A DNA stretch of 42,443 nucleotides from Flavobacteriaceae bacterium (lineage in GTDB: Bacteria; Bacteroidota; Bacteroidia; Flavobacteriales; Flavobacteriaceae), in NCBI GenBank assembly GCA_023558315.1, contig JAMJVX010000010.1, positions 1 to 42,443 on the forward strand. Reading direction: 5' to 3'. The number at the start of each line of letters is the position of its first letter. Position 1 is the stretch's first letter. Positions 24,436 through 39,320 of the stretch are shown here, piece by piece. The translations under genes and the position numbers were made by a program. The notes below the pieces were generated by a model that saw only the letters and a program-made list of their open reading frames with translations, had not been told where the DNA came from and ran no database searches.

Positions 24436-24443
24436 TATATTTG
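24436..24443 (+). promoter_or_regulatory. -7 box for InlB-repeat lipoprotein
   Basis: TATATTTG, 15 bases before ATG 24459. The alternative TTG start at 24441 lies within the box and is therefore rejected. Confidence 0.55.
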
Positions 24444-24458
24444 CTAAATAATATCTAT

Positions 24459-24806
24459 ATGAAAAATCTATATATTAAAACTTTATATTTTATAACATTC
24501 ATTCTTATATACAAATGTACAAACATAGAAGAGGACAAAGAATCTATTTCTCCTACTAAATACACTTTAACAGTTACTTCTGGAGAAGGTGGGTCAGTAA
24601 CCCCAGATGCTAGCGGAACCTATAATAAAGGGGCTACAATAACAATAACAGCCACTCCAAATAATGGATATGTCTTTGACAAATGGGTGGGTAGTGATAA
24701 TGATAATTCTAACTGTAATTTCTCAGGACCTTTAGGTTGTCGAACTGGCATAACAATGAACTCTAATAGATATGTTGACGTTTTTTTTAAAAGAAAAGTA
24801 GAATAA
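24459..24806 (+). CDS. Small InlB B-repeat-like lipoprotein
   Basis: 115 residues. A hydrophobic N-terminus ends in LIYKC (Cys20), followed by the acidic run NIEEDKE, compatible with a surface-exported lipoprotein, although Lys before Cys is unusual. The rest is one divergent InlB B-repeat domain: YTLTVTSGEGGSVTPDASG, KGATITITATPNNGYVFDKWVG and a final VDVFFKR strand. Two Cys (in NCNFSGPLGC) could form a disulfide loop. Such domains usually occur in long adhesins; here it stands alone, so it may be a remnant or a minimal surface protein. Its own promoter is present, and the gene sits between two copies of a 20-bp direct repeat. Confidence 0.8.
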   Translation: MKNLYIKTLYFITFILIYKCTNIEEDKESISPTKYTLTVTSGEGGSVTPDASGTYNKGATITITATPNNGYVFDKWVGSDNDNSNCNFSGPLGCRTGITMNSNRYVDVFFKRKVE

Positions 24807-25189: not shown

Positions 25190-25263
25190 AGCCGATGGAG
25201 GGACTCGAACCCACGACCTGCTGATTACAAATCAGCTGCTCTAGCCAGCTGAGCTACATCGGC
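25190..25263 (-). tRNA. tRNA-Thr (anticodon TGT)
   Basis: First tRNA of the array. Acceptor GCCGATG/CATCGGC, anticodon loop TTTGTAA on CTGA/TCAG, T loop TTCGAGT. Reads ACA and ACG. Its acceptor arm is nearly the same as that of tRNA-Thr(GGT). Confidence 0.95.
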
Positions 25264-25355: not shown

Positions 25356-25399
25356 AAAAATAATAAAATATAGTAAAGTGTAACATGATTAAATTTAAT

Positions 25400-25417
25400 T
25401 TAACATTAAATTAACAT
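25400..25417 (+). promoter_or_regulatory. Pho-box-like direct repeat TTAACAT-N4-TTAACAT
   Basis: Two identical heptamers TTAACAT at 25400-25406 and 25411-25417, 11-bp period, with AT-only spacer TAAA. Further related heptamers are GTAACAT at 25380 and TTAACTT at 25432. The geometry (7-bp repeats, 4-bp spacer) is that of PhoB boxes, and the sequence resembles the TTAACA-type PhoP boxes of Bacillus. It lies about 75-90 bases before the -7 box of the lipoprotein/receptor cluster. Function is inferred; the region is AT-rich, which raises the chance of coincidence. Confidence 0.4.
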
Positions 25418-25490
25418 TGAGGGTATTAAACTTAACTTTAAAATAACAATAATTTGATTTTGGGTTAAAACAAATAATCTGTAACCTATA

Positions 25491-25498
25491 TAGATTTG
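25491..25498 (+). promoter_or_regulatory. -7 box for lipoprotein-receptor unit
   Basis: TAGATTTG, 21 bases before ATG 25520. No -33 TTG at the right distance, which would suit an activator-dependent promoter. The TTG start candidate at 25496 lies inside the box. Confidence 0.55.
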
Positions 25499-25519: not shown

Positions 25520-26764
25520 ATGCAAAATTATTTTAATTATTTATTCTTTATCATAACAACAATTATCATTATTGCTTCATGTAGTGTGCCTAGTGATAAT
25601 TTTGACCTAGTAAACTCTACAACCTATGAATACTCATTAACAGGAGAAATTACGGAAGATAAAACCTTAAGTGAATCAACTACTTGGAATCTTAACGGTA
25701 GAGTTTTTGTCAAAAATGGGGCAACTTTAACAATTCCTGCAGGAACTATTATTAAAGCAAATCAAGGAACAGGAAGCAATGCGGCAGTTTTAATAATCTC
25801 AAGAGGAGCAAAGATTATCGCAGAGGGAACCGCTGATAAACCCATTATTTTCACTACTCAATACGATAGTATAACTGCTGGAAATTTTATAGGAACTAAC
25901 CTCAATGAAAACTCTAGGGGGCTTTGGGGAGGGCTTATAATTTTGGGAAAAGCCCCTATCCATGGTGATAAACCAACAGCAGGAGTGACAGAGAGAAATA
26001 TAGAAGGACTTCCCGCAAATAGCTTAAATGGTATGTATGGTGGTTCGATTGAAAACGATAATTCTGGTATCCTTAAATATGTTTCCGTCCGACATGGGGG
26101 AGTGGCCATAGGAGAAGGCAACGAAATTAATGGAATTACCTTTGGGGGTGTAGGAAACGGCACTTTGGTTGAAAACATAGAAGTCGTTGGAAATGTAGAC
26201 GATGGTGTAGAATTTTTTGGAGGAACAGTAAATGCTACAAATGTTTTAGTATGGGCGCAAGGGGACGATGCTATAGATATTGATGAGGCCTATAAAGGAA
26301 CGTTAAAAAATGTTTTTGTGAAATTAGGAATTGCTTCAGACCATGCACTTGAAGTAGACGGCCCAAAAAGTGGACCTAATGTCAATGCTCAATATACACT
26401 TTCTGGCGCAACATTTGTTGGATATAATGCGCCTGCGGGTAGAGCATCCATTGCTGACTTTAGGGATGGTGCTGTAGGTATAAATAGTGGAATTTTAGTT
26501 AAAGGATTTAAAGCAGAATCAAATGTAGAATTAGATGCCTCAGCAGATGTTACTCGTTTCACAAAGGGGGATTTATTATTTAAGAATTGGAAAGTCAAAT
26601 TACCTGAAGGAAGTACTGACATCAATGGAATATTTGATAATAAGGTGTCGGGAGACACATTTAATAATCCCGTTTTTGCAACTGCTATAACAAGTGAATC
26701 TATTACTGTTGGTGCGGATGAATCGGTATTTGGCTGGACCATGTATAAAAAGAAAGGGAACTAA
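25520..26764 (+). CDS. Beta-helix-like lipoprotein paired with TonB-dependent receptor
   Basis: 414 residues from ATG 25520. Lipoprotein signal with IIIIASC (Cys21). The N-terminal part reads TGEITEDKTLSESTTWNLNGRVFVKNGATLTIPAGTIIKA (in short runs), followed by Gly-rich strands with LWGGLIILGKAPI and GTVNATNVLVWAQGDDAIDID, suggesting a right-handed beta-helix. It belongs to a Bacteroidota family that is often found beside a TonB-dependent receptor and is sometimes misnamed multidrug transporter. Probably a surface partner of the receptor at 26813, 48 bases downstream with no promoter of its own. Ligand unknown; phosphate-related uptake is a guess from context. Confidence 0.75.
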   Translation: MQNYFNYLFFIITTIIIIASCSVPSDNFDLVNSTTYEYSLTGEITEDKTLSESTTWNLNGRVFVKNGATLTIPAGTIIKANQGTGSNAAVLIISRGAKIIAEGTADKPIIFTTQYDSITAGNFIGTNLNENSRGLWGGLIILGKAPIHGDKPTAGVTERNIEGLPANSLNGMYGGSIENDNSGILKYVSVRHGGVAIGEGNEINGITFGGVGNGTLVENIEVVGNVDDGVEFFGGTVNATNVLVWAQGDDAIDIDEAYKGTLKNVFVKLGIASDHALEVDGPKSGPNVNAQYTLSGATFVGYNAPAGRASIADFRDGAVGINSGILVKGFKAESNVELDASADVTRFTKGDLLFKNWKVKLPEGSTDINGIFDNKVSGDTFNNPVFATAITSESITVGADESVFGWTMYKKKGN

Positions 26765-29692: not shown

Positions 29693-31921
29693 ATGGAAAA
29701 TATTTATCTATATATTGTCATTATTTTATGTTTATTAGCAATTGTAGATCTTGTAATTGGAGTAAGTAATGATGCCGTAAATTTTCTAAATTCTGCTATT
29801 GGCTCTAAAGCAATTTCCTTTAAAGTTTTAATGATACTTGCAAGTATTGGGATTATCCTCGGTGCATTATCCTCAGGTGGAATGATGGAAGTAGCGCGAA
29901 AAGGGATATTTAATCCTAGCGCTTTTTTCTTTGATGATATTATCCTTATCTTCTTAGCAGTAATGCTAACAGACATTATTTTATTAGATTTTTTTAATAC
30001 TCTTGGATTTCCAACTTCTACTACGGTATCTATAGTCTTTGAACTATTAGGGGCTGCAGTAATGATGGCGGTTCTAAAAATTATTAATTCAGAAGCAAGT
30101 TTCGCTACTTTAGAAATGTATATTAATACCGCAAAAGCTACCCAAATTATTTTGGGAATTGTTCTTTCCGTATTCATCGCATTTTCTGTAGGGTATTTTG
30201 TGCAATGGATATCTAGACTTATAATTAGTTTTAATCTAAAAAATAAATCCAATTTAACTAATACTATTTTTGGTACAATTTCGCTTGTTACACTTTTTTA
30301 TTTTATTGTTATAAAAGGATTAAAATATCTAGATATTCCTTTTTTAAAATCCTATATGAATAATGCCAATTTTATTGAAGTTATAGGTATATTATTTATT
30401 GTATTCTTTTTGTTGTGTTTCGTTTTTACTCGTATACTAAAATGGAATATTTATAAAATTATCATAGGTGTAGGTACATTTGCTTTGGCATTGGCATTTG
30501 CTGGTAACGATTTAGTGAATTTTATAGGAGTACCCGTAGCGGCCTTTCAATCATTTAAAATCTGGATAAATAGTGGGGTTTCTCCAGAATTATTAAATAT
30601 GCAAACTTTGGAATCTAAAGTCTCCTCTCCTACTCTATTTCTATTTATTTCAGGGATTATTATGATAATAACGCTTTGGATATCATCTAAAGCAAAAAAA
30701 GTCATCAAGACTTCCATAGATTTATCTAGTCAAAATGATATAGAAGAACGATTTAAACCCAATATTTTTTCAAGAGTAATTGTATCTTTTTTTGCTAGTA
30801 TAAATACTCTTATTAATAAGATTATGCCAATAAAAATAAGAATTTTTATTAAAAAGCAATTCAAGAATAACATAGGGAATAAAGAGTCTAAAGACTCGCC
30901 TTCTTTTGATATGTTAAGAGCGTCAGTAAATTTAGTGATTGCTGCTTTATTAATTACAATTGCAACTTCTTTAAAACTCCCTTTATCTACAACCTATGTT
31001 ACTTTTATGGTTGCAATGGGAACTTCCTTAGCAGATAGAGCATGGAATAGAGATACGGCTGTATATAGAGTTTCAGGCGTGACAAATGTAGTAGTTGGAT
31101 GGTTTTTTACTGCAATTAGTGCTTTTATTATTGCAGGTATTTATTTATTAATATTAAAAAAATTAGGAATTGCTGGAATTATCCTTGCACTTGTATTTAC
31201 CATCTATATTATTTTACGAAATCATCTAAGACATAAAAGAGAATTAAAGAAAACATTAGAGAATTTTTCTTTGGTTAAGCTTCAAAGCAAATCACTTCAA
31301 GGAATTATAAAAGGGAGTTCTTCAAACGCTTTAAATTTTTCAGTGAGGATAAATGAAATATATCTTAATTTGATAAAAGGGGTATCGCTACATAAAAAGA
31401 AAAGGCTCAAAGATTATTTTAAACAAATCAAAAAATTAGAATTTGAGATTTCAGAGTTACAACAAAATGTATTTCCTCTCATAAAAAATACAGAAAAATA
31501 TTCTCTAGAAATAAATAAATTTTATATCGCCTTATATACAGGGTTTGAAAAAATGTTGCAAAAAACAGATTTTATTTTAAAAGAATGTTTTGATCATGTA
31601 AATAATAATTACATGAAACTCAGATTTATTCAAATCAAAAAATTAGAAATTCTTTTTGAAAAAAACCAACTTCTATTTGAGCAAGAAAAAGCATTTTATG
31701 AGAATACGAATTTAAAAAACATAAATGTACTTGAAAAGGAAGTACAAAATGTAATTAATTTTATTGAGGAATTATTAAGCAAAGAAATTAACACCATCAA
31801 AAAAGACAATAAAACCTCCAAAAACACAAAGCTTTATTTCAAAATACTAATTAATTTTCAAGAGATAGTTAATTTAAAAAGAGAAATAATCAAAGAATTT
31901 AAATCAATACAAAAACTCTAA
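29693..31921 (+). CDS. PiT-family inorganic phosphate transporter with PhoU-like C-terminal domain
   Basis: 742 residues. About 10-12 membrane helices. The duplicated PiT signature is present: GVSNDAVNFLNSAIGSKA near residue 23 and AGNDLVNFIGVPVAAF near 265, plus GFPTSTTVS and the matching KLPLSTTYVT. After the last helix (about residue 515) comes a soluble, all-helical tail of about 220 residues, Lys- and Glu-rich, resembling DUF47/PhoU regulators; in many bacteria this is a separate gene beside pit. Imports phosphate with a cation. Bacteroidota PiT proteins of this long type are common. It follows the receptor cluster and precedes a MarC-family gene by 19 bases. Confidence 0.9.
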   Translation: MENIYLYIVIILCLLAIVDLVIGVSNDAVNFLNSAIGSKAISFKVLMILASIGIILGALSSGGMMEVARKGIFNPSAFFFDDIILIFLAVMLTDIILLDFFNTLGFPTSTTVSIVFELLGAAVMMAVLKIINSEASFATLEMYINTAKATQIILGIVLSVFIAFSVGYFVQWISRLIISFNLKNKSNLTNTIFGTISLVTLFYFIVIKGLKYLDIPFLKSYMNNANFIEVIGILFIVFFLLCFVFTRILKWNIYKIIIGVGTFALALAFAGNDLVNFIGVPVAAFQSFKIWINSGVSPELLNMQTLESKVSSPTLFLFISGIIMIITLWISSKAKKVIKTSIDLSSQNDIEERFKPNIFSRVIVSFFASINTLINKIMPIKIRIFIKKQFKNNIGNKESKDSPSFDMLRASVNLVIAALLITIATSLKLPLSTTYVTFMVAMGTSLADRAWNRDTAVYRVSGVTNVVVGWFFTAISAFIIAGIYLLILKKLGIAGIILALVFTIYIILRNHLRHKRELKKTLENFSLVKLQSKSLQGIIKGSSSNALNFSVRINEIYLNLIKGVSLHKKKRLKDYFKQIKKLEFEISELQQNVFPLIKNTEKYSLEINKFYIALYTGFEKMLQKTDFILKECFDHVNNNYMKLRFIQIKKLEILFEKNQLLFEQEKAFYENTNLKNINVLEKEVQNVINFIEELLSKEINTIKKDNKTSKNTKLYFKILINFQEIVNLKREIIKEFKSIQKL

Positions 31922-31940: not shown

Positions 31941-32531
31941 ATGAATACAATTATTCCAAATTTTGTAGATGTAATAACTATCACGCTAATTTTATTTGCT
32001 GTCATTGATATTATAGGAAGTATTCCCATAATACTTTCTTTAAAAAGTAAATCAGGAATTATTCAACCTGCAAAAGCAATATTTATTTGCTTGATCATAA
32101 TGCTTATTTTTCTCTTTGTAGGAGAGTCTATTTTGCATCTTATAGGTATAGATATTAATTCTTTTGCAGTAGCAGGTGCCTTTATTATCTTCTTCTTAGC
32201 TATTGAAATGATTTTTGGTATTTCATTTGGAAAAGAACAAGAGGTTAAAAATACGAATTATACTATTGTCCCTATCTCTTTTCCCATTATTGCTGGACCA
32301 GGAAGTATTACCTCTATTCTTTCTCTAAGAGCAGAATATGAAATAGTCAATATTGTCATTGCTATAATCATAAACCTCATTTTAGTTTATTTTGTATTGC
32401 GTTTTTCAAAATATATTGAACGACTTCTAGGAAAATCGGGAATAGAGATTACGAAAAAAATATTTGGAATAATCCTTTTGGCAATTGCCATTAAATTATT
32501 TACAAGTAATATTAATCAATTATTGAATTAA
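31941..32531 (+). CDS. MarC-family (UPF0056) integral membrane protein
   Basis: 196 residues with six predicted membrane helices. Family signs: AVIDIIGSIPIILSL in the first helix, INSFAVAGAFIIFFLAIEMIFG, and PISFPIIAGPGSITSIL in the middle. The family is widespread; once linked to multiple antibiotic resistance, that role was not upheld, and its substrate is unknown. It sits 19 bases after the PiT gene with no box of its own, so it is probably co-transcribed. Its 3' end meets a hairpin at 32540-32570. Confidence 0.92.
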   Translation: MNTIIPNFVDVITITLILFAVIDIIGSIPIILSLKSKSGIIQPAKAIFICLIIMLIFLFVGESILHLIGIDINSFAVAGAFIIFFLAIEMIFGISFGKEQEVKNTNYTIVPISFPIIAGPGSITSILSLRAEYEIVNIVIAIIINLILVYFVLRFSKYIERLLGKSGIEITKKIFGIILLAIAIKLFTSNINQLLN

Positions 32532-36578: not shown

Positions 36579-39320
36579 TTAATAACCGCAATTTCCAGAT
36601 AATGTCTGATTCAAATCTTTAGTAACATTTTCAATGCTTTGTCCACTTGCTGTTTGAATACACGTCAGCGAAGAATTCCTATCTACCCATAAGTAAGTTA
36701 ATGACGTATTATTACTTACATCCAAACTCGTTAAGGAATTAGAAAATACCCACAATCGATTCAACGCTGTGTGAATACCTACATCCAAACTAGTCAAAGA
36801 ATTAGTAGCAACAATTAAATTTTCTAAAGCCGTATTAGTACTTAAATCCAAATAGGTAAAAGAATTGTTTTGCATACTTAAATAATCCAACTCAGTATTA
36901 GTACTTAAATCTATACTATTTAAAGGATTTGTACTTACAAATAAAGTTCTCAATTTAGTATTACTACTTATATTTATACTAGTTAAAGAGTTTGAATTTA
37001 AATATAACTTAGACAATCTTGTAAGACTACTCACATCTATACTGCTCAAAGAATTTGAAGTAGCTACTAAGCTAAAAAGCTGAGTATTATTTGATACATT
37101 CAAATTACCTAAAGGATTAAAACTTGAACCTAAATTTGTTAACCTAGTATTATTTGATATATCTAAACTAGTCAAAGAATTATTAATAATATCTAAGTTT
37201 GCCAATACTGTAAGGTTGCCTACATCCAAATTTTCCAATTTATTATTATATAAATTTAAATTTGTTAATAAGGTAAGATTACTTACCTCCAAATTAGTCA
37301 AGGAGTTATTACTCGCCCTTAATATGACCAACGTTGTATTGTTTTCTATCTGCAAACTGTTTAAGTTGTTATAATCTAAAGCTAACCAGTTTAAAGACTT
37401 CATATAACTTACTCCCGTGGCGTCATTAATACGAATACTAGTATCATTATGATTAGGAATCCCATTATTGTAATTAAATTTAGTAATTGATTCAAGGACA
37501 TCTTTACTAATTAAACTTCCATCTGCTGAAATATTTCCTTCATAGTTTTCAGTACATGCATATTTATAATCGCCAGCTACTCTTGTATGTCCATTGTTGA
37601 TACAACTAATGATAGCATTTCTAAAAATATCGTCTGGAATATTTATATAAGATCCCGAAAGACTTGTAGATAAGCTTATTGTATTTCCATATGTAATTCC
37701 AAATGCGTTGGCAGCATATACTTTTATATAATACGTAGAGGCACTACTTGCTGTAAACGCTCCTGTAAAATTCCCTATACTATTTTTAGTTCCTAGAGAA
37801 ATTGTAGTTACACCATTTCCACTTACTACTAAATCCTCTCCACTGATAGTAGAAGCATATACAAAACCATGCTGGCTTACTTGGGTGCTTCCAGTCCCTA
37901 TATCACTAAGATTACCTTCTAAAGTAAAGGTCATTCCCGAAACGCTAGCATTAATTAGATTTACACTTGGAGGAGTCGCATCTAGTGTGGTAAACCCTGC
38001 TTTTAATCCATAACTTGTCCCACCTGAATTAGAGGCATAAGAAACATAATAGTAAATAGTGTTGTCACTTAATCCTGTTAGATTTGTTGTGAAATCTCCG
38101 AATCCAGTATTAGTACCTACTTGTACATTTGTTCCGCTTTCCTCAAGCGTCAGAGTCGCTTCATAATTTGTACTATATATAAAACCATGATTAGTTATGG
38201 ATGCTTCACCTATCGTAATCACTTTTGCATTTAAAGTTGCTGTAGTATAACTAACATTTGTTGCTGCAATAGTAGCCACTTGTGGTCGCATAGCGGGTTC
38301 ATTAATAAGTGATATTGTATATATCTGTGCGCTCTTGTCACTTGCTTCCACAGTTACATTATTTGTTCCAACACTCAATAAACTGTTCTCTCCAAAAGTA
38401 TTTGCACCTATAGTTGCTTTCGCTTGATTAGAGAGTGAAATAGCTGATACCCTCGCTTGTGTTGTCCCAAAAGGCAATCCGGTAAATATAATAGTAGTTC
38501 CCGAAATAGTTCCATCAGCAACGCTTCGCGTTTGGGTAAAAGGACTACCCCCAGATATACTCACTTCAATGCTTAAACTCAAAATATTGGCTTCATTATT
38601 TAGGGTTGTGAAATTTATTTGATTACCATATGCCGTACCATTTGCAGTAGTTATATAAGGGCGCACGAAATAGGTCGTAGAAGTATTTAAATCAGATAGA
38701 GTACTTGTATATTCTCCTGTTGGATTTTTGCTAGTTTTGTTCGATGAAGAATTTAAACTAGTACTTAATACATTACTTGCTCCTAATACTAACTCATCCC
38801 CTTGAGCAGTATCACTATATATATGTCCATATTGTACAATTGTTCCAGTGTCTATATTCCCTATTTTTGAAGTAATACTTACAGAAATATTTGCTCCACT
38901 TTGCGAATTATTAATACTTACAGCTGTTTGTGCTCCTCCAGAAAGTGTTTGAAAGATATCAGTTTGTTGTTGTGCGGTTATAGTGACAGAATAGGTTTGT
39001 GTACTACTATTCTCGGCAGTAACAGTAATAGAATTAGTACTACCCACGACGAGATTATCTCCTACTTTTTTACTGGCGTTTGCTTTTTCAGATAAAGTAA
39101 AGGCTTTAATACTTACTTGTGTAATTCCAAAAGGTACTTTATTTGAAAACGTAATATTAGTACTGTTAATCACTCCTGTATATTCTGTGCTTCCTGAAGC
39201 AACTGTAAACGCAGTAATGGATCTTCCAGAAAGTTTTTCTTCTTCAGGATTACATCGCAATACACTAATAAACATCCCTACTATTATACTAAGTGCTATA
39301 AAATATTTTATTATTTTCAT
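36579..39320 (-). CDS. LRR surface lipoprotein candidate 2 (paralogue of 17511-19925)
   Basis: 913 residues with the same plan as candidate 1. The signal ends ISVLRC (Cys23), followed by NPEEEK. Then DUF5018-like and Fn3-like beta domains alternate (about 30-560), a shared LRR N-cap (INIPDDIFRNAIISC, with second Cys in KYACTENYEG), eleven 21-residue LRRs (643-873) and a C-cap with SLTCIQTASGQSIEN and final NCGY. N-cap and C-cap are nearly the same in both proteins, while the LRR count differs (11 against 8). No type IX sorting domain. It follows the CstB-like gene by 43 bases with no box of its own. Confidence 0.85.
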   Translation of the reverse strand: MKIIKYFIALSIIVGMFISVLRCNPEEEKLSGRSITAFTVASGSTEYTGVINSTNITFSNKVPFGITQVSIKAFTLSEKANASKKVGDNLVVGSTNSITVTAENSSTQTYSVTITAQQQTDIFQTLSGGAQTAVSINNSQSGANISVSITSKIGNIDTGTIVQYGHIYSDTAQGDELVLGASNVLSTSLNSSSNKTSKNPTGEYTSTLSDLNTSTTYFVRPYITTANGTAYGNQINFTTLNNEANILSLSIEVSISGGSPFTQTRSVADGTISGTTIIFTGLPFGTTQARVSAISLSNQAKATIGANTFGENSLLSVGTNNVTVEASDKSAQIYTISLINEPAMRPQVATIAATNVSYTTATLNAKVITIGEASITNHGFIYSTNYEATLTLEESGTNVQVGTNTGFGDFTTNLTGLSDNTIYYYVSYASNSGGTSYGLKAGFTTLDATPPSVNLINASVSGMTFTLEGNLSDIGTGSTQVSQHGFVYASTISGEDLVVSGNGVTTISLGTKNSIGNFTGAFTASSASTYYIKVYAANAFGITYGNTISLSTSLSGSYINIPDDIFRNAIISCINNGHTRVAGDYKYACTENYEGNISADGSLISKDVLESITKFNYNNGIPNHNDTSIRINDATGVSYMKSLNWLALDYNNLNSLQIENNTTLVILRASNNSLTNLEVSNLTLLTNLNLYNNKLENLDVGNLTVLANLDIINNSLTSLDISNNTRLTNLGSSFNPLGNLNVSNNTQLFSLVATSNSLSSIDVSSLTRLSKLYLNSNSLTSINISSNTKLRTLFVSTNPLNSIDLSTNTELDYLSMQNNSFTYLDLSTNTALENLIVATNSLTSLDVGIHTALNRLWVFSNSLTSLDVSNNTSLTYLWVDRNSSLTCIQTASGQSIENVTKDLNQTLSGNCGY
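36702..37394 (-). repeat. LRR-coding tandem array, 11 units of 63 bp
   Basis: Eleven uninterrupted in-frame 21-codon units with pattern LxxLxxxxNSLTSLDxSxNTx. All are exactly 63 bp, unlike the array of the paralogue, where two units have an extra codon. Confidence 0.85.

Follow-up and report, generated by a model that had tools for sequence, protein, structure and literature searches.

Is the short repeat that precedes the genes for a lipoprotein, a TonB-dependent receptor and a PiT phosphate transporter in a member of the Flavobacteriaceae the binding site of a phosphate (Pho) regulator? The repeat lies on contig C10, which is our window (the whole stretch of DNA that was analysed, 42,443 nt); the genome comprises 1.56 Mb in 83 contigs and is 92% complete. 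We think that the answer is very probably yes. By sequence comparison and analogy, we give a probability of roughly 0.88 to the reading that a Pho-regulon operon (lipoprotein, receptor, PiT-PhoU, and possibly MarC) has its operator and promoter at 25389-25498, where the response regulator on contig C67 would act during starvation for inorganic phosphate (Pi).

The array and the genes behind it

The relevant features of the window are:

25389-25395 (+): degenerate heptamer TTAAATT, 11 bp ahead of the perfect pair and part of a triple-heptamer match at 25389-25416 (2 mismatches)
25400-25417 (+): perfect direct repeat TTAACAT-TAAA-TTAACAT, read directly; the putative core of a distal Pho box
25432-25449 (+): another direct repeat, TTAACTT-N4-ATAACAA, at positions that fit the relatives' grid (-59 and -48 from the -7 octamer)
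25465-25471 (+): promoter-proximal degenerate heptamer TTAAAAC, on the grid at -26
25491-25498 (+): -7 promoter box TAGATTTG, from the sequence; no -33 TTG at a gap of 19-21 nt ahead of it
25520-26764 (+): lipoprotein, 414 aa (ATG at 25520), predicted parallel beta-helix
26813-29665 (+): TonB-dependent receptor, 950 aa (CarboxypepD_reg_2, Plug, beta-barrel), after a gap of 48 nt
29693-31921 (+): PiT phosphate transporter, 742 aa, after a gap of 27 nt
31235-31918 (+): PhoU-fold C-terminal domain of PiT, two three-helix bundles in a structure model
31941-32531 (+): MarC-family membrane protein, 19 nt behind PiT and possibly the last gene of the operon

The original prediction rested on two copies of TTAACAT with an 11-bp period, and these are present, at 25400-25406 and 25411-25417 with the spacer TAAA. 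It also named two related heptamers. TTAACTT at 25432-25438 is on the grid that we describe below; GTAACAT at 25380-25386 is out of phase, and we dropped it as a member of the array. The array extends further than had been noticed, with members also at 25443 and 25465. The -7 box without a -33 TTG is as it had been described.

Taken alone, the repeat is unremarkable, as it was picked post hoc in AT-rich DNA (the intergenic gap is 256 bp and 82.8% AT) and identical pairs of 7-mers are common in shuffles of such a gap: in 10000 dinucleotide shuffles, some identical pair arose at distance 11 in 1360 and at distances of 8-20 in 8324. The specific motif fares better. TTAACAT-N4-TTAACAT arose in none of the 10000 shuffles, and TTAACA-N5-TTAACA arose once. 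In the whole genome, the window has the only exact copy of TTAACAT-N4-TTAACAT, and the backwards pattern has none. Pairs of TTAACA-N5-TTAACA with one mismatch are not enriched genome-wide (22 sites, as against 46 for the backwards control), and 17 of the 22 fall within open reading frames. Three heptamers in a row with up to two mismatches occur only in the window and upstream of a gene for a MORN-repeat protein; at three mismatches, there is no excess in this genome (5 matches versus 8 for the control). Since the window alone proves little, the finding stands or falls with the comparison to relatives.

At E = 0.001, neither Pfam nor NCBIfam has a family that matches the lipoprotein. Its AlphaFold model has a mean pLDDT of 86.9 and is mostly beta strands. 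The best matches in PDB are polygalacturonase, pectin methylesterase, and pectate and alginate lyases, none of which reaches E = 0.001; we take all of these structures to be parallel beta-helices. (The lipoproteins of three relatives, L026, L033, and L036, have DCGG-type, cysteine-containing repeats behind the lipobox; the protein from the window does not.) A PiT transporter had been listed among the downstream genes, and PF01384 identifies the N-terminal part of its product with 109.8 bits, versus a cut-off of 33.7. It is the only PiT in this genome. To our eye, the cluster looks like a main phosphate-acquisition route of the cell.

A run of four tRNA genes on the minus strand ends at 25263, before the gap. 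Adjoining this tRNA cluster, 24441-24806 (+) encodes a 121-aa protein with a divergent InlB B-repeat domain. Elsewhere in the window, 36579-39320 (-) encodes a 913-aa protein with a weak match to leucine-rich repeats (LRR_4, slightly below the cut-off).

Conservation and phasing in relatives

The lipoprotein matched in 47 of 60 genomes (our own genome counted). An alignment of lipoproteins, used as the query, found named relatives; a scan of contigs with the receptor as the single query protein found no relatives. The closest relatives in the comparison set share the family level only. Most of the relatives with names belong to the Flavobacteriaceae, and many are marine; we took the best 80 named lipoprotein loci (L054-L133) for comparing loci. 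The receptor gene is on the lipoprotein's strand in 78 of the 80, and in at least 46 a PiT gene follows downstream on that strand (many loci stop within or before PiT). A Porin_O_P gene often lies between the receptor/lipoprotein pair and PiT.

For the upstream regions, we began with 108 sequences and left out five that duplicated named genomes, the 15 members of group B (which score below 180 bits and have the lipoprotein behind the receptor), and L037 and L038. Removing similar sequences reduced the remaining 86 to 79, with the window counted among them. Two copies of TTAACA at a distance of 11 bp, with at most one mismatch in each, occur within the 200 bp before the start codon in 55 of these 79 non-redundant, though phylogenetically dependent, regions. 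Shuffling the 79 regions 100 times gave a mean of 5.9 (SD 2.3) and a maximum of 13. A distance of 11 is by far the strongest; the next are 33 (24 regions), 22 (21), and 19 (21). At this stringency, 24 of the 79 lack a pair within 200 bp. The motif thus passes the check that had been proposed, conservation ahead of orthologous receptor/lipoprotein pairs, and it is this conservation that gives the putative box its significance.

Other genes at the same loci serve as controls: the 11-bp pair precedes 47 of 67 lipoprotein genes versus 5 of 71 unrelated genes. It is not enriched upstream of the divergent dGTPase genes of the named loci (3/44). Among genes for phosphate uptake, we found the pair before 10 of the 14 PiT genes that have a gap of their own and before 5 of 23 porin genes. 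A scan upstream of pstS and phoX had also been proposed. The boxes before pstS are on the grid (see below), but PhoX upstream regions, which we tried as an independent positive set, gave a weak signal, with 6 of 24 at distance 11.

The boxes are phase-locked to the promoter. We anchored 65 of the 79 lipoprotein promoters on a -7 element that was chosen blind to the heptamers. Relative to the -7 octamer, TTAACA is found at -26 (40 promoters), -70 (33), -15 (30), -59 (19), and -37 (15). One of the 11 possible phases accounts for 155 of the 240 hexamers; if the anchors are jittered by up to 5 nt, then the highest count in 1000 trials is 52. A -33 TTG at 19-21 nt is missing from all 65, so the lack of this element, which had been expected of an activator-dependent promoter, is a family-wide feature. 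Similar offsets recur before other phosphate genes. Porin_O_P promoters (18 of 30 anchored) have TTAACA at -15 in 10 cases and at -37 in 7, PiT promoters (14 of 29 anchored) have it at -26 in 7 and at -37 in 5, and pstS promoters (5 of 9 anchored) have it at -26 in 3. A -33 TTG is present in 0/18, 1/14, and 0/5 of these, respectively. Because unrelated genes share the grid, common descent of one promoter does not account for the geometry of these predicted promoters.

In the window, the hexamers on the grid are TTAACT at 25432 (-59), ATAACA at 25443 (-48), and TTAAAA at 25465 (-26). These proximal heptamers are degenerate. The perfect pair sits some 80 bp ahead of the -7 box, at -91 and -80, which is 1 nt off the grid of the relatives (-92 and -81). 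We also considered that the perfect pair might mainly have another function (in silencing, as an enhancer at a distance, or in a promoter that serves the side of the tRNA genes, the four minus-strand genes that end at 25263) and that only the degenerate heptamers act at the operon's promoter. However, distal heptamers that are in phase are common in the relatives (at -70 in 33/65 and at -59 in 19/65), and a long array is the rule. Also, the dGTPase side of the lipoprotein gene shows no enrichment in relatives. We consider a separate function for the perfect pair to be unlikely. All in all, we hold it to be very likely that the site in the window is a Pho operator of the flavobacterial kind.

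The regulator and the reversed arrays

This genome has a single match to PF00486 (OmpR-type regulators), at C67:13093-13773, and a histidine kinase gene is next to it. Matches to the regulator at E = 1e-40 were found in 34 of 40 genomes (our own counted). Most of the orthologues from the same family are 60-66% identical to it; a few genomes have second matches, at 40% identity or less. Since its scores are below the NCBIfam cut-offs for PhoB (212.2 versus 296.2 for TIGR02154 and 218.7 versus 270 for NF053854), we call it the flavobacterial PhoB orthologue and not a member of the equivalog; the regulator of one relative (L026) likewise scores below these cut-offs. The region of the recognition helix reads RTIDVHIR in 23 of 24 aligned regulators, including our own, and RTIDVHVR in the other (L118).

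The regulator's orthologues often lie near the genes in question. Among the 80 named loci, phoB is divergent from and upstream of the lipoprotein gene in 19, and a dGTPase gene is in this position in 51. Elsewhere, the gene of the orthologue diverges from the lipoprotein gene in two genomes (G011 and G042) and from pstS in two others (G046 and G043), and it is near pstS in G046, G043, and G050. The upstream region of the C67 regulator gene itself has no good box. In one relative, an exact box (L253:1501-1517) is 65 bp from the start of phoB, on the opposite strand, and autoregulation is possible in that genome. The PhoR-like kinase of our genome (L134:1808-2728) begins about 38 residues later than those of relatives, and it seems to have one N-terminal membrane segment, versus two in three relatives.

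TonB-dependent receptors often carry iron or vitamins. The array might then serve a direct-repeat regulator that responds to another signal (iron, vitamin, or envelope stress), and the receptor might import a ligand unrelated to phosphate. In Riemerella anatipestifer, according to the portions of PMC9603813 drawn on here, some targets of PhoP are not obviously phosphate genes and the motif is ArcA-like. However, only one OmpR-type regulator is encoded in our genome, porin O/P, PiT, and pstS have the same boxes ahead of them, and the low-Pi loci of Flavobacterium johnsoniae are described as tightly repressed under nitrogen and iron limitation (PMC8115612, in part). We consider a signal other than phosphate to be very improbable.

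We also searched 99 genomes for the exact extended 17-bp motif AACATTAANTTAACATT and found 47 sites in 37 of them, versus 3 sites for the backwards control. We inspected 31 of the 47. All 31 are within about 100 bp of the start of a gene for a MORN-repeat protein (20 sites), a porin (9), the window lipoprotein (1), or phoB (1), so the motif is not scattered at random. We had thought of the exact motif as mostly a word of porin and PiT promoters, and we dropped this view when mapping placed 20 of the 31 sites at divergent MORN-repeat genes, in reverse orientation. These 20 sites are 64-83 bp (17 bp in one case) before the MORN-repeat gene, which is on the opposite strand.

The MORN-repeat promoters (51 of 69 anchored; L254-L282) have TGTTAA at -47, -36, and -14. 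In contrast to the lipoprotein promoters (0/65), 30 of the 51 have a -33 TTG at 19-21 nt, and the gap is exactly 20 nt in 26. Because the reversed array overlies a complete -33/-7 promoter, it suggests that the Pho regulator would repress the MORN-repeat gene. The orthologue in our genome is on contig C18:

L284:1094-1468 (-): secreted MORN-repeat protein, 124 aa

It has four heptamers upstream, where inspection by eye shows no clear -33 TTG. This second array, at C18:19318-19356 (L284:1501-1540), lies between a comF-like gene (+) and the MORN-repeat gene (-).

That the repeats arose by chance in a gap of 83% AT and have no function is hardly credible: the frequency of identical 7-mers in shuffled gaps, the lack of enrichment of one-mismatch pairs in the genome, and the offset of the perfect pair by 1 nt would fit with chance, but the motif is conserved before orthologues and phase-locked to the -7 box, it is common to porin, PiT, and pstS promoters and rare before control genes, and the only triple-heptamer matches in the genome with two mismatches or fewer are the window site and the site of a MORN-repeat gene that bears boxes in relatives.

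We return to the Pho operator. Control by a PhoB/PhoP-type regulator, the central claim of the original prediction, is supported by the conservation before orthologues, by the grid that the porin, PiT, and pstS promoters share, and by the non-random placement of the motif. We propose that, when Pi is scarce, the PhoR-like kinase would phosphorylate the sole OmpR-type response regulator. Dimers of this regulator would bind head to tail on the TTAACAT-type heptamers, which recur every 11 bp on the same side of the helix, and would recruit RNA polymerase to a promoter that has a -7 box but lacks the -33 element. The products of the operon would then be a lipoprotein/receptor pair for the outer membrane and a Pi transporter for the inner membrane. 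Binding, activation, co-transcription, and the receptor's ligand are what we infer for this organism. The ligand is presumably related to phosphate, given the gene context and the published induction of the corresponding pair (see below).

A PhoU-like fold in PiT, and comparison with known systems

The last 228 residues of PiT are modelled as two three-helix bundles (pLDDT 88.6). The first 11 rows from Foldseek are PhoU or PhoU-like proteins, with TM scores of 0.53-0.73 (1sum is titled only "hypothetical protein"). VIA-align gives Z = 17.9 to 1t8b, with an rmsd of 3.2 over 205 residues; the cytosolic domains of plant ALMT (AtALMT) come next at Z = 12-15, and other bundles are at about 9. The domain in the window does not match Pfam's PhoU (PF01895), and the domain of a relative (L122) has E = 0.0018, which is below the cut-off, so we label it a PhoU fold and not a member of PF01895. 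A sequence profile of the domain found no PhoU among PDB sequences; the comparison of folds alone did.

In our genome, we found no match to Porin_O_P, PhoX, PstS, or (at the level of Pfam) PhoU, absences that are uncertain at 92% completeness. We searched 40 genomes for three families and found a long PiT in 28. A stand-alone PhoU is present in 1 of the 28 genomes with a long PiT versus 6 of the 12 without (Fisher p = 0.0014, uncorrected for kinship). This suggests that the PiT-PhoU fusion takes over a PhoU-like role. More tentatively, we speculate that in many Flavobacteriaceae, PiT-PhoU might be both transporter and sensor and might signal Pi to PhoR without Pst or a stand-alone PhoU. Here, the fusion would be under its own Pho box, which would close a feedback loop. 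The same regulator might activate through forward arrays that replace the -33 element and repress the secreted MORN-repeat gene through mirror arrays over a complete -33/-7 promoter. This scheme is a good deal less certain than the operator.

The new elements are a definition of this family's Pho operator, the mirror arrays, and the fusion of PiT with a PhoU fold in a genome in which Pst was not found. A literature search (most subscription journals were outside its reach) turned up neither a Pho array phased to the -7 box nor a PiT-PhoU fusion described for Bacteroidota. The flavobacterial Pho operator can be defined by its heptamer, its 11-bp period, its offsets of -15, -26, -37 and so on from the -7 octamer, and the lack of a -33 element. 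With this definition, the Pho regulons of uncultured marine flavobacteria could be read from sequence. The analysis also links phosphate to a receptor/lipoprotein pair about which little is understood, and it points to a route for sensing Pi without Pst, which raises the question of how PhoR learns the level of phosphate. Compared with PhoU and PiT as two proteins, the window's transporter has both in one fused protein, with the PhoU fold in the C-terminal domain.

A known counterpart of the pair is in F. johnsoniae. According to the part of PMC8115612 used here, Pi depletion raised the transcripts of Fjoh_0544 (PhoB) by 3.06-fold, Fjoh_0545 (TBDT) by 8.02-fold, and Fjoh_0546 (lipoprotein FII, IPR011050) by 9.91-fold. 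The receptors have matching domains (Plug, CarboxypepD_reg-like, and OMP_b-brl_3), the predicted beta-helix of our lipoprotein would fit FII's annotation as a pectin-lyase fold, and, as in the Fjoh_0543-0546 PhoBR/TBDT/FII cluster, a lipoprotein of putative beta-helix type is beside a TBDT, with PhoBR adjoining in some relatives. In our genome, however, PhoBR is on contig C67, not beside the pair, and the operon runs on into PiT. Hence we say that the window pair corresponds to, not that it is, the pair of the F. johnsoniae cluster; the correspondence is one of domain content and gene neighbourhood. In its main text, that paper (PMC8115612) uses none of the words promoter, motif, binding site, and upstream.

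In the portions used of PMC2996285, ElpS of Caulobacter crescentus is an outer-membrane lipoprotein that is induced by low phosphate and encoded beside a TonB-dependent receptor gene, and PMC8115612 (in part) gives it 31-36% identity with F-type lipoproteins. As points of difference, ElpS leaves the cell through type II secretion, and the receptor gene beside it is reported not to be co-regulated. PhoP of R. anatipestifer, another member of the Flavobacteriales, is OmpR-type and is reported to be up in phosphate starvation, and TTTAACA is the most conserved part of its DAP-seq motif (PMC9603813, in part). This resembles our heptamer, although the sections of that paper that we drew on describe no 11-bp array or phasing to the -7 box, nor the operon of the window. 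For the plcP clusters of marine bacteria, Pho boxes were predicted by bioinformatics (PMC4796936, in part).

As outlined in the part of PMC4415409 used here, a PHO box consists of two 11-nt direct repeats, each with 7 conserved and 4 less conserved positions, before phosphate genes. The array in the window is like the PHO box of PhoB/PhoP regulons: it has 11-nt direct repeat units before phosphate genes, with an exact pair at 25400-25417 and with a period of 11 that is strongest in the relatives; the phosphate-uptake genes downstream are conserved in relatives; and the genome has an OmpR-type regulator with an adjoining kinase as the presumed cognate pair. The heptamer differs, being TTAACAT rather than the CTGTCAT of Escherichia coli or the GTTCACC of Streptomyces. 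The consensus for PhoP of Bacillus subtilis is TTAACA-like, with N5 spacing. Compared with the classical PHO box, the flavobacterial array may span several units, and it appears to be phased to the -7 element of Bacteroidota and to occupy the place of the -33 element.
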